Source: Bacillota bacterium
Lineage (GTDB): Bacteria; Bacillota; Sulfobacillia; Sulfobacillales; JAIMBI01
Length of the DNA stretch: 48,250 bases
Reading direction: 5' to 3'
Assembly: GCA_021846565.1 (NCBI GenBank)
Contig: JAJZWS010000020.1
Location: forward strand, 1-48,250
Shown here: positions 9,265 to 13,193 of the stretch, piece after piece
How the letters are laid out: the number at the start of each line of letters is the position of its first letter
How positions within the stretch are numbered: the stretch's first letter is position 1
Translations under genes and position numbers: made by a program
The notes under the pieces: model-generated
What the model was told of the DNA's origin: nothing
What the model saw: the letters and a program-made list of their open reading frames with translations, nothing else
Databases searched by the model: none

Positions 9265-10497
9265 CTAGGGCTGCCGGACCGCCGCCCGGTGGGTTTCCGG
9301 CAGGCGCCACGCGATGAATCCGGTCGCGGCCAGCACCAGGACGCTCACGACCAAAAGGCTCGCCCGCATGCCGACGGCGGCCAGCAGCAGGCCGAGTCCC
9401 ACGCCCCCGACGGCATAGCCGCCGTCCCGCCACAGCCGATAGACCCCCAGCACCGCGCCGCGCTCGTGCGGGGGCGCCACGTCGGCCACGGCGGCGTTTA
9501 AGACGGGATAGGCCATCGCCATTCCCAGTCCCATCGTGGCGGCGGCGGCCGCCCAGGGGATGGTCCCGGTGACCAGGATCATGGCGGCCAAACCCAGACC
9601 GACCAACAAGAGGCCGGAAACAATGAGCGGCTTGCGGCCGGTGTGGTCGGACCAGAGGCCGGTGCCAAACTGTCCGAGTCCCCACACGCCCGCGTAGATG
9701 CCTGACAGGAGCGCAATCACCGGCACCGACTCGTGGGCGCTGGCGAAGTACAGCGGCAGGAGGCCCCAGGCCACGGTGTCGGCGAGCTTGTTGACAAACC
9801 CGCCGACGGTGAGTGAGGACAGCGCCGGATGCCCCCAGGTGGTGTGCGCCAGGATGCGGCCAAAGGGCCGGACGCCCTCCGCGGCGGGGGCGGGCGGGAC
9901 ATGCCCGTGGGTTTCCCGAATGATGGCCAGGCTCTGGATGCCGCCCACCAGGACGATGGCGCCCGCCAGGTAAAACGGCCGGGTGGTGAGGTGGCCGTGG
10001 GCGGCCAGGAAGCCGGTGGCCACCGTGGCCAGTGCCACGCCCAGATACCCCATCGCTTCGTTGACCCCCATGGAGAGCCCGCGCTCGTTCGGGCGCACCA
10101 GGTCCAGCTGAGCGGTCACGGTCATGGTCCAGGCCAGACCCTGGTTCGCCCCCAGCAGCACGTTGGCCACAATCACCGCCCACCACGCATGCACCAGCAG
10201 CAGCAGCACCACCAGCGGGACGGCTGCGAGCCACCCCGCAATGAGGAGCGGGCGGCGGCCCACGGAGTCGGACCACCGGCCCGCCCCCATGTTCACGAAC
10301 GCCTTGGTGAGGCCAAACGAGGCGATGAACGACAGCGCCAGGGCGGCCGCGACGTGATACACGTCGCGGCCCAAGAGAGGTACGACGGCACGCTCGGTGC
10401 CCAGCACACCACCCACCAAGAGGACATTGACCGACAGCCAGAGAAACTGAGTCCGGTTCTTGGAAAGTCCCGGGGTGGCTGGGGCGGACTGCGTCAC
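9265..10497 (-). CDS. MFS transporter, last gene of the ArsR-rhodanese/MBL operon
   Basis: A 410-residue transporter with 12 predicted membrane segments. Motif A-like loops are seen as GAGRWSDSVGRRPLLIAG in the first half and GTGLWSDHTGRKPLIVSG in the second, so the two-fold MFS repeat is clear. The GTG start at 10497 overlaps the TGA of the MBL gene (GTGA, 10494-10497), which points to coupled translation and to one functional unit. Substrate is not evident from sequence. The neighbours suggest export or import of a sulfur compound or other anion, but this is inference. Confidence 0.88.
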   Translation of the reverse strand: MTQSAPATPGLSKNRTQFLWLSVNVLLVGGVLGTERAVVPLLGRDVYHVAAALALSFIASFGLTKAFVNMGAGRWSDSVGRRPLLIAGWLAAVPLVVLLLLVHAWWAVIVANVLLGANQGLAWTMTVTAQLDLVRPNERGLSMGVNEAMGYLGVALATVATGFLAAHGHLTTRPFYLAGAIVLVGGIQSLAIIRETHGHVPPAPAAEGVRPFGRILAHTTWGHPALSSLTVGGFVNKLADTVAWGLLPLYFASAHESVPVIALLSGIYAGVWGLGQFGTGLWSDHTGRKPLIVSGLLLVGLGLAAMILVTGTIPWAAAAATMGLGMAMAYPVLNAAVADVAPPHERGAVLGVYRLWRDGGYAVGGVGLGLLLAAVGMRASLLVVSVLVLAATGFIAWRLPETHRAAVRQP

Positions 10498-11225
10498 GGC
10501 GCGCCCACCTCGGTGTTGGCCGCCACCACGGCCTCGAAGTTGGGCGGCTTCTCAGGCAGGGTGGACAGGATGAACTCTAAAAACGCATCGGGCGTACGGG
10601 GACGGAGCGCCGGGTTGAAGCGCCGCTCAAAGCCAATGGTGGAAACGACCTTTCCACTTAGGTCGCGGCCTCAGGTGGATCCGCTGAAGGCACCGGGATA
10701 CACCTCAACATAGTCCGGCAGCGTCAGGAGCTTCGCCAGGCTTTGCTGCAGGGCCTCGGCGCCCTGCACGGGCGCAAGGTCCGGCCGGCCGGCGTCGCCA
10801 ATCATCAGAGCGTGGCCCGTGAGTACGAACCAAGGATCTGGCCCGCGCCGCCGGTCGGTCACGACGAGGCTCACGTGATCCGGCGTGTGGCCGGGGGTGT
10901 GCCAGATGGCGACGTCCACGTTGCCCATGTCCAGATGATCGCCATCGACCACCCGCCGAACCGGAGATCGGACGGGGGCATCGGCATGCCGGACGTAGGT
11001 GGCACCGGTGGCAGCCACCAGGGCCCGCGAGCCCGACAGGTGGTCGGCATGCGTGTGCGTGTCCACGACGAACCGCAACTTGAGTCCCAACGTTGCCAGA
11101 TCATCGAGATATGGAGCCGTATGAGGGAGTGGATCCACCACTGCCGCGATGCCCTGGCTGCCTCACCCAAACAGATAGGACGCCGCCACCACCGGTTCGG
11201 TGTGCAGATACTGGCGAAAAATCAT
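10494..11225 (-). CDS. MBL-fold persulfide-dioxygenase-like protein with two in-frame TGA codons (putative selenoprotein)
   Basis: The frame runs from ATG 11225 (SD AGGGGG 7 bases before) for 243 codons to the TGA at 10494-10496. It is interrupted only by TGA at 11163-11165 (codon 21) and 10671-10673 (codon 185). Metal motif HTHADH is at residues 57-62, HTPGH at 109-113 and GDAGRPDL at 143-150. The TGAs fall in SYLFG(TGA)GSQG and GST(TGA)GRDLSGK. I recall homologues having SYLxGC and GSxCGK there, so both replace cysteine. Conserved sequence continues after the second TGA (STIGFERRFNPAL). The last histidine ligand region reads YPGAFSGS, lacking the H of related enzymes. Selenocysteine at both sites is my preferred reading; two nonsense mutations, both at cysteines, is the alternative. 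No sel gene lies in the window. Confidence 0.72.
10639..10657 (-). promoter_or_regulatory. SECIS-like hairpin after the second TGA
   Basis: On the coding strand GTGGAAA-GGTCG-TTTCCAC forms a perfect 7-bp stem with a 5-base loop. The loop begins 21 bases after the TGA and starts with G. This fits the bacterial SECIS pattern as I know it (UGA to loop 16-37 bases, G in the first two loop positions). The GGUC loop resembles that of E. coli fdhF. Confidence 0.55.
11125..11145 (-). promoter_or_regulatory. SECIS-like hairpin after the first TGA
   Basis: On the coding strand GGCAGTGG-TGGAT-CCACTCCC pairs as 7 bp with one C/C mismatch. The loop starts 26 bases after the TGA and has G as its second base, so spacing and loop also meet the bacterial SECIS pattern. 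The stem is weaker than the second one, and part of it comes from a GGATCC palindrome. Confidence 0.4.
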
Positions 11226-11307: not shown

Positions 11308-11970
11308 TCAGCCTATGGCCTGGGGTCTTGGGGGCCAGTCGCGGACGCTGGCTTCCGTGCGGCGTGCAGCGATGCCCTGTTGGGCCAGGTAGCGAACGGC
11401 GTCGCGGGCGTACAGGCAGTAGCGGCCCCGGCAATACGCCACCACGGGCTTTTGACCCTGCCAGCCGCGGAAGTGCTCGGCCAGCATGGGCAGCGGGACG
11501 GAAACGGCTCCAGGCAGGTGCTGAGCGGCATACTCCGCCACCGGCCGCACGTCAATCAGGTAGAGAGCGTCGGACGCCATCAGGGACTGGAGCTCGCCGA
11601 GCGGCACGGGGTCCGCATCGGCCGGGTCGGGGAAGTACTGCTGCCGGGCGACCCCTAGCTCCAGGAGCAGGGACTCTCCCGCCACTTCTACGGACTCCAG
11701 CAGCCGATTCACGGCTGGGCCGGCCAACTCGTAGATCACGTAGGTGCCAGCCTTGTGCGACCGCACCAAGCGGGCGCCCTTCAGCTGGTGCAGATGCTGC
11801 GAGGTGTTGGCGACGCTGGCCAGAAGCTCCCCGGCCAGCTGCTCCACACTTTTCGGACCCTGCGCCAGCAGGTCCAGGATCTCCAGCCGACGTGGGCTGG
11901 CCATCGCCTTGCCCATGCGCGCCACGTGGCCGTACACCTCGTCCTTCCACGCGCGATGGTCGTCACGCAT
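11308..11970 (-). CDS. ArsR-family regulator fused to a rhodanese domain
   Basis: A 220-residue fusion. Residues about 5-95 form a winged helix-turn-helix of the ArsR type (SPRRLEILDLLAQGPKSVEQ, then ANTSQHLHQLKGARLVRSHK). No metal-binding cysteine motif is seen in the recognition region. Residues about 120-215 form a rhodanese domain with DVRPVAEYAAQHLPGAVSVP and the active loop CRGRYC. The rhodanese cysteine could sense or carry persulfide sulfur, linking control to sulfur state. ATG 11970 has SD GAGGGG. A palindromic operator and a promoter lie directly upstream, so autoregulation is likely. It heads the operon with the MBL and MFS genes (82 bases to the MBL start). Confidence 0.9.
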   Translation of the reverse strand: MRDDHRAWKDEVYGHVARMGKAMASPRRLEILDLLAQGPKSVEQLAGELLASVANTSQHLHQLKGARLVRSHKAGTYVIYELAGPAVNRLLESVEVAGESLLLELGVARQQYFPDPADADPVPLGELQSLMASDALYLIDVRPVAEYAAQHLPGAVSVPLPMLAEHFRGWQGQKPVVAYCRGRYCLYARDAVRYLAQQGIAARRTEASVRDWPPRPQAIG

Positions 11971-12169: not shown

Positions 12170-12647
12170 AACCAGGGCGGCGCGGCTGCGACGCAAGTGG
12201 CTACTGCCCAGCGTTCCGCCCACCCTGCTGGCCACAGCAGCCAATGACCGGCTTCGCGCGGCCTGCTCCGGCTCTCCTGCGTGACCGCGGCCGCAGTGGG
12301 CAGCGCCGGAACCAAGACGGTCCGCCGGACTGCGATGGATGTGCGTGTCCAACGTTTTCGATGGGTGGGCCATCGGCCCAGACGTGGGCTGCGTCCGCTC
12401 ACGGCCCAACGGCTTCCCGCGCGTTCTCTGTCGGATCCCTGGCACTCATGAGAGACGCGGAGATCCCACGGGGCCCTTCCGCCAGTGGTGGGCGTTGTCA
12501 TAAAATGAGCCACGTGGTTTTCGGAGGGGGCCGCACCGGGGTCGAATGCCATCACGTGGTGTGTTCGCTGCGTGGGCGGACGGCAACGGTGCGCGACCAG
12601 TATGCCGGTGGCGCTGAGAAGCCCACCGGCGACACGGAGGTGTCGTG
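12170..12647. other. 478-base stretch without a recognised gene
   Basis: Open frames on both strands here show no family signal or SD. A TAAAAT hexamer near 12500 may be the -10 of a promoter for msrA, but the -35 is poor. No RNA gene was seen. Confidence 0.4.
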
Positions 12648-13193
12648 ATGACCGAGAGTCTAGGACACGACGAGTCATTGGCCGTGGCCACGTTCGCGGG
12701 CGGGTGCTTTTGGTGCATGGTTCACCCCTTTGACCAGTGGCCCGGGGTCAGGCGCGTGGTGTCGGGCTATACCGGTGGCACCACGGTGAACCCCACCTAC
12801 GAAGAGGTGTGCAGCGAGGTGACTGGCCACCGTGAGGCCGTGCAGATCACGTTTGACCCGCGGGAGATGCCATACGAGCGGCTGCTGGAGCTTTTTTGGC
12901 AGCAGATTGACCCGACCGATGCCGGCGGCCAGTTTGTCGACCGGGGTTCGTCGTACCGGGCAGCCATCTTCTACCACACGGAAGAGCAACGGCAGTTGGC
13001 CGAGGGGTCCAAGGCAGCGCTCGCGGCCAGCGGCCGGTTCGACCGTCCCATCGCGACCGAAATCCTGCCGGCGGCGCCGTTCTACCCGGCCGAATCCTAC
13101 CACCAAGACTACTATAAGAAGAATCCGGGGCACTACGGACGGTACCAGCAGGGATCGGGCCGCCTGACGTTTGTGCAGCGCCACTGGTCCTGA
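12648..13193 (+). CDS. msrA: Peptide methionine-S-sulfoxide reductase MsrA
   Basis: A 181-residue MsrA that reduces the S-form of methionine sulfoxide in proteins. The catalytic motif GGCFWC is near residues 19-24, followed by [35 protein letters not shown] and the Tyr-rich end [16 protein letters not shown], all family hallmarks. The catalytic residue is an ordinary Cys codon, unlike in some selenium-using MsrA proteins. ATG 12648 follows GGAGGTG at good spacing; a GTG just before is less likely. It is 6 bases from the GNAT gene and likely cotranscribed with it. Confidence 0.96.

Follow-up and report, generated by a model that had tools for sequence, protein, structure and literature searches.

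An MBL-fold protein resembling persulfide dioxygenases (PDOs), enzymes that clear toxic sulfur compounds, is described here in which two in-frame UGA codons, 21 and 185, are almost certainly decoded as selenocysteine (Sec); no protein or selenium data and no mass spectrometry are available. Its gene lies in a 48,250-nucleotide stretch (positions 1 to 48,250 of contig JAJZWS010000020.1, a Sulfobacillales assembly), which we refer to as the window. The overall explanation, a MBL protein of the PDO/CstB kind with Sec at residues 21 and 185, is considered likely, its strength lying mainly in the double-Sec claim. We regard it as a new selenoprotein family and as a variant within an enzyme kind already known; the mechanism of Sec decoding is not new. 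A MBL-fold family is absent both from the 2022 list (PMC9312934) and from the 2026 list of 119 prokaryotic selenoprotein families (PMC13188914). No report of a MBL-fold or persulfide-dioxygenase selenoprotein was found in the literature searched; Deng et al. 2026 (Cell Rep), who give further candidates from groundwater MAGs, could list one.

The gene begins with an ATG at 11225, preceded by the Shine-Dalgarno sequence AGGGGG, and its terminal TGA overlaps the GTG start of an MFS transporter gene at 10497 (GTGA overlap). The first-pass annotation had claimed a single frame with TGA at codons 21 and 185 as its sole interruptions and ending at the MFS overlap, the motifs HTHADH, HTPGH and GDAGRPDL, automatic gene calls limited to residues 29-184, and Cys at both TGA columns in related proteins. 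All of this held. The translation from 11225 to 10494 contains no other internal stop, HTPGH and GDAGRPDL are found at residues 109-113 and 143-150, and a standard ORF caller returns only a GTG ORF of 156 aa (10671..11141). Genes of this kind come out truncated under standard ORF calling. What had been missed is that the PDO metal-ligand motif 'TGD' reads 'TGH' here.

The protein matches Pfam Lactamase_B (E 1.8e-9), and no NCBIfam model scored above its cut-off. A phmmer search against the PDB returned 3tp9 (E 1.2e-42) and 3r2u (E 6.7e-34), the nearest solved structures, both carrying Cys opposite each TGA. An AlphaFold model built on a 50-sequence alignment (pLDDT 93.6, pTM 0.92) has 3tp9 and 3r2u as its closest folds, followed by ETHE1 and other PDOs. 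The window's genome (3.42 Mb, 134 contigs) also has a second PDO-like MBL gene (G000:C9:12848-13564), with 43% identity and no stops. The features of the locus are collected in Table 1.

Table 1. Positions in the window of the double-Sec gene, its predicted elements and the adjoining genes.
Feature	Position	Strand	Basis
Double-Sec MBL-fold (PDO-like) gene, predicted	10494..11225	minus	243 aa when the two UGA codons are read through (TGA=U translation)
UGA codon 21, predicted Sec (SYLFG-U)	11163..11165	minus	TGA/TGC/TGT at the column in close relatives; Cys in 3tp9/3r2u
UGA codon 185, predicted Sec (GST-U-GR)	10671..10673	minus	15 distinct Sulfobacillales loci, as well as loci of Nitrospinota and Chloroflexota, have TGA; the others have TGC/TGT
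SECIS-like stem-loop 1, GGCAGUGG[UGGAU]CCACUCCC	11125..11145	minus	Loop starts 26 nt after UGA 21
SECIS-like stem-loop 2, GUGGAAA[GGUCG]UUUCCAC	10639..10657	minus	Loop starts 21 nt after UGA 185
HTHADH metal-ligand region, residues 57-62, first ligand H57	11040..11057	minus	H57/H59/D61 invariant; numbering as AcPDO H57 (PMC6060420)
His138 where PDOs have the iron-ligand Asp (TGD to TGH)	10812..10814	minus	His in 20/20 clade members; others Asp 45, Gly 3
MFS transporter, translationally coupled	9265..10497	minus	Pfam MFS_1 E 1.1e-42; adjoins the MBL gene in many relatives
ArsR-type regulator fused to a rhodanese domain, upstream	11308..11970	minus	Pfam HTH_5 E 6.3e-12, Rhodanese E 1e-10; NF033788 above cut-off

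Relatives were collected by a class-wide search of 154 genomes together with one scan of a genome collection, and for each relative we noted which codon stands at either column. TGA at both sites was found in 13 distinct Sulfobacillales loci (the window's and 12 further ones, down to about 60% identity), among them one from the cultured Sulfobacillus harzensis DSM 109850 (L053). Two loci, L029 and L032, have TGC at site 21 and TGA at site 185. TGA followed by Cys occurs in L062 and L093 (Vulcanimicrobiota/Eremiobacterota), and the reverse order, Cys and then TGA, in L060 (Nitrospinota) and in L064 and L065 (Chloroflexota); two further Chloroflexota genomes have Cys/TGA (L132) and Ser/TGA (L133). 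Genes with Cys in both columns come from Paenibacillus, Aquificaceae, Metallosphaera, other Sulfobacillales and more. The exchange of TGA and Cys at both columns spans four bacterial phyla.

No TGA was present elsewhere in the aligned region of any TGA-bearing row, and over about 243 codons the 13 TGA/TGA genes are free of further stops, a pattern far beyond chance. Trp was never seen at either TGA column among the relatives; Cys is found there instead. Residue 21 is Asp, Ser or absent in some more distant relatives and is therefore not universally needed. Differences at the three codon positions 3' of the second UGA are 0.25, 0.22 and 0.58, which indicates coding constraint there. In the tree, the TGA/TGA genes group in a single Sulfobacillales clade, inside which the TGC/TGA pair branches, and we infer from this that TGC at site 21 of that pair is a Sec-to-Cys reversion. 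The Cys/Cys genes of Sulfobacillales and Paenibacillus lie just outside this clade, and the Nitrospinota plus Chloroflexota genes and the Vulcanimicrobiota genes are separate lineages.

The bacterial SECIS model calls for a small apical loop with a G in its first two bases, located 16-37 nt from the UGA (PMC13188914), and the stem-loops after both UGA codons fit it (UGGAU at +26, GGUCG at +21). All TGA genes of the clade carry AGUGG[UGGAU]CCACU or near variants after UGA 21, with outer pairs at one position being C-G, U-A or U-G, and GUGGAAA[GGUCG]UUUCCAC with small changes after UGA 185. In the alignments, 90% of the cells of stem-loop 1 are paired, compared with 39-53% when slid, and 100% of those of stem-loop 2. 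Furthermore, the two highest peaks of synonymous-codon conservation in the gene, at codons 24-38 (the highest) and 187-199 (the second), lie directly 3' of the UGAs. Where the amino acid is the same, codon identity amounts to 0.62 across the 15-codon windows that follow the two UGAs, as against 0.40 elsewhere; 0 of 20,000 column permutations reached the higher value, and circular shifts did so only within 5 codons.

Orthologues with Cys give the matching comparison. Stem-loop 1 is broken in TGC/TGT orthologues, stem-loop 2 is absent from Cys orthologues, and Cys/Cys genes have lost both. In L029 and L032, stem-loop 1 is broken and stem-loop 2 is intact beside TGA 185, so that a reversion at site 21 losing only the SECIS of that site makes a clean natural experiment. 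Folding of single sequences was unremarkable and not significant alone (z-scores -0.5 and -1.7), and at site 185 a different stem folds best in a few sequences, that of the window among them. Formal covariation gives only weak support at site 21 (34/500 shuffles), and the stem at site 185 is nearly invariant, leaving no covariation to test. The SECIS evidence therefore rests on synonymous conservation and on the comparison with Cys orthologues, not on single-sequence folding or formal covariation.

The window's genome has one tRNA-Sec above the Rfam cut-off (67.8 bits against 47), and ARAGORN calls the same gene tRNA-SeC(tca). Hits above the curated cut-offs were obtained for selB (300-321 bits, cut-off 242), selA (511 bits, cut-off 268) and selD (350 bits). 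The selD gene has an in-frame TGA at its UGCK catalytic loop, which gives the genome one or more selenoprotein genes of an established kind. We searched for selA and tRNA-Sec in 30 genomes; those with TGA-bearing genes have one or both, with the exception of the genome behind the TGA/Cys locus L093, where neither was found. Neither was found in the Paenibacillus (Cys/Cys) genomes among those examined. Two tRNA-Sec-like genes, a strong one (70-73 bits) and a weaker one (55-59 bits), were observed in the Sulfobacillales genomes G092, G102, G111, G115 and G116, of which G111 is a two-contig genome.

With respect to the metal site, H57, H59, D61, H113 and R147 are invariant in the alignment, and the window's protein keeps the PDO residues H57, H59, D61, H62, H113, R147 and D149. 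The iron ligands of AcPDO are H57, H113 and D130 (PMC6060420), and this 2-His-1-carboxylate triad defines the PDO site (PMC6060420, PMC12856154). Residue 138, corresponding to the ligand Asp, is His throughout the clade (Table 1). Residue 179, the second-sphere His of PDOs (AcPDO H171), is Ala in 19/19 clade members and His in all 45 others with the column filled. Both replacements are shared by the Cys-only clade members L036, L037, L041 and L055, so the swap is most simply older than Sec on the tree. An engineered triple-His variant of AcPDO showed low activity only, and ligand variants lose most activity (PMC6060420). The PDO criteria of a MBL fold and a HxHxDH/HTPGH core are met, whereas those of the 2-His-1-carboxylate triad and the second-sphere His are not. 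The alignment thus shows the clade to be PDO-like in fold yet without a defining PDO feature, and it should not be classed as a proven dioxygenase.

The pairing of the MBL and MFS genes recurs in Paenibacillus, Aquificaceae, other Sulfobacillales and Vulcanimicrobiota (there with the MFS gene upstream), often together with ArsR or ArsR-rhodanese genes. Most Paenibacillales copies have the order ArsR-rhodanese, NifS, MBL, MFS. In L055 (52-5996) and L155 the 2-selenouridine genes selD and mnmH precede ArsR/rhodanese-NifS-MBL(-MFS), and further Paenibacillales copies have sulfane-sulfur genes around them (TauE-like, rhodanese, TusA-like and thioredoxin-like, as read from sequence). The Chloroflexota Cys/TGA proteins are MBL-rhodanese fusions adjoining a molybdopterin oxidoreductase and a Sulf_transp (YeeE-type sulfur transporter) protein. 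These neighbours link the family with sulfane sulfur and partly also with selenium, and from this gene context we infer a role in persulfide or selenium handling.

Some further observations concern the neighbouring genes. The regulator in the window carries cysteines nowhere but in the rhodanese loop CRGRYC; with none in its HTH domain, it may sense by way of the rhodanese domain. A MsrA-like ORF (12645-13193, plus strand; GCFWC motif, Cys-type), named from sequence only, is divergent from the regulator gene. The order seen in L055 and L155 suggests that the MFS protein and the regulator may serve selenium homeostasis in Paenibacillales.

We propose the following mechanism. The tRNA-Sec, SelA, SelB and SelD would insert Sec at residues 21 and 185, each UGA being directed by its own stem-loop; the sequence conservation of the stem-loops is shown, the insertion is inferred. 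From the alignment, a mononuclear metal, probably iron, would be ligated by H57, H113 and, unusually, H138. The two selenols would occupy the positions of conserved Cys in CstB-like proteins, and we infer that they act in or close to the substrate pocket, where they would bind, reduce or transfer sulfane sulfur (or selenium). Operon logic further suggests that the ArsR-rhodanese protein may sense persulfide or selenium stress, that the MBL protein may convert low-molecular-weight persulfides or selenopersulfides, and that the MFS protein may export a product.

Other readings of the two UGA codons have been considered. In a decaying pseudogene both TGAs would be nonsense and fragments or nothing would be made. 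It can be said in favour of this that ORF callers find residues 29-184 only, and that a genuine nonsense TGA exists in the family, at an Arg column at the start of the L148/L155 gene (Paenibacillales genome G511), which lacks its MFS partner downstream; this is an ordinary nonsense mutation, unlike the Sec TGAs. Decay is all but excluded here by the recurrence of both TGAs in 13 distinct genes, with identity falling to about 60% and no other stops, and by purifying selection 3' of both TGAs. Alternatively, UGA could be read as Trp or Cys, through a code change, a special tRNA-Cys or leaky read-through, and a Cys-inserting UGA tRNA would fit the Cys columns too. This is very unlikely, as TGA is an ordinary stop here (for example at the end of the MBL gene itself), the genome has complete Sec machinery with a Sec-type SelD, a stem-loop stands beside each UGA and is lost where UGA became TGC, and the columns have Cys, never Trp. 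The pseudogene, code-change and sequencing-error readings were rejected on the cross-genome evidence. The first-pass annotation had claimed that both UGAs encode Sec, and had proposed a search of the genome for selC, selA, selB and selD, all four of which are present, and of related genomes for TGA or Cys at both columns, which were found. Every computational check it proposed supports the Sec claim, without direct detection of selenium.

The enzymatic role is less certain. The same annotation had called the protein persulfide-dioxygenase-like; the fold and the HxHxDH/HTPGH core bear this out, and the label 'dioxygenase' remains unsettled since the iron-ligand Asp is His. The protein may be an ordinary PDO in which Sec replaces Cys merely as protection against over-oxidation, the MFS protein exporting sulfite or thiosulfate. 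Its nearest relatives of solved structure are 3tp9 and 3r2u (S. aureus), an ArsR-family sensor with a PDO and a transporter resembles the BigR operon (PMC7315123), and in Chloroflexota the members are fusions of PDO and rhodanese that have the usual Asp; the His in place of that Asp throughout the clade, Cys members included, weighs against this, and we see the case as evenly balanced. Asp-to-His together with His-to-Ala argues against ordinary PDO activity. Alternatively, the protein may be a selenoprotein and no dioxygenase, its H138/A179 site repurposed in the service of selenium metabolism, for example in sulfane-sulfur or selenium transfer, reduction of peroxide or selenium compounds, or hydrolysis. 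The perfect clade split at the two residues (His and Ala, against D/G and H elsewhere), the loss of activity in AcPDO ligand variants (PMC6060420) and the selD-mnmH-ArsR/rhodanese-NifS-MBL(-MFS) order in L055 and L155 speak for it. The retained PDO fold and residues and the several relatives in sulfur clusters speak against, and we lean slightly away from this reading. In the absence of activity data, whether the MBL protein is a true dioxygenase could be decided either way, and persulfide or selenium-persulfide chemistry at a triple-His metal site is a plausible inference. A bolder reading, which is no more than possible, is that two Sec and a natural triple-His centre act jointly in one MBL-fold enzyme on selenium compounds, such as selenopersulfides or selenide/selenite products, in selenium homeostasis and not as a plain persulfide dioxygenase.

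Under the preferred double-Sec reading, the MBL fold would join the folds known to use selenocysteine, and a selenoprotein would be placed at the persulfide-oxidation step, beside the known Sec-type sulfide:quinone reductase. Two-Sec selenoproteins are few. The protein resembles the PDO-rhodaneses of the CstB/3tp9 type (Type III PDO; S. aureus 3r2u, Alicyclobacillus 3tp9) in its MBL fold (TM 0.91-0.93), in the same two Cys/Sec columns (SYLxGC, GSxCGK) and in its thiol-persulfide gene context. It differs from them in having predicted Sec at both columns, H138 and not Asp, A179 and not His, and no fused rhodanese (243 aa, MBL only), the rhodanese being on the regulator instead; the Chloroflexota Cys/Sec relatives do have a C-terminal rhodanese on the same chain. 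With the Type I enzymes ETHE1 and AcPDO it shares the HxHxDH, HTPGH and GRxD core, H57 and H113 aligning with the AcPDO iron ligands, whereas it has His for the Asp ligand (AcPDO D130), different cysteines and an extra Sec185 loop where Type I has GHDYxG. The correlated Asp-to-His/His-to-Ala swap makes it a natural triple-His counterpart to a family known for its 2-His-1-carboxylate triad. The Cys version, found beside selD and mnmH in two Paenibacillales genomes, recalls the SelD-MnmH (2-selenouridine) clusters. UGA-encoded Sec in sulfane-sulfur proteins is shared with the type III SQR selenoprotein subtype NF049943, the Sec rhodaneses and YeeE/YedE; unlike the protein described here, none of the listed sulfur-metabolism selenoproteins has a MBL fold (PMC13188914 Table 1; PMC9312934 Table 1).
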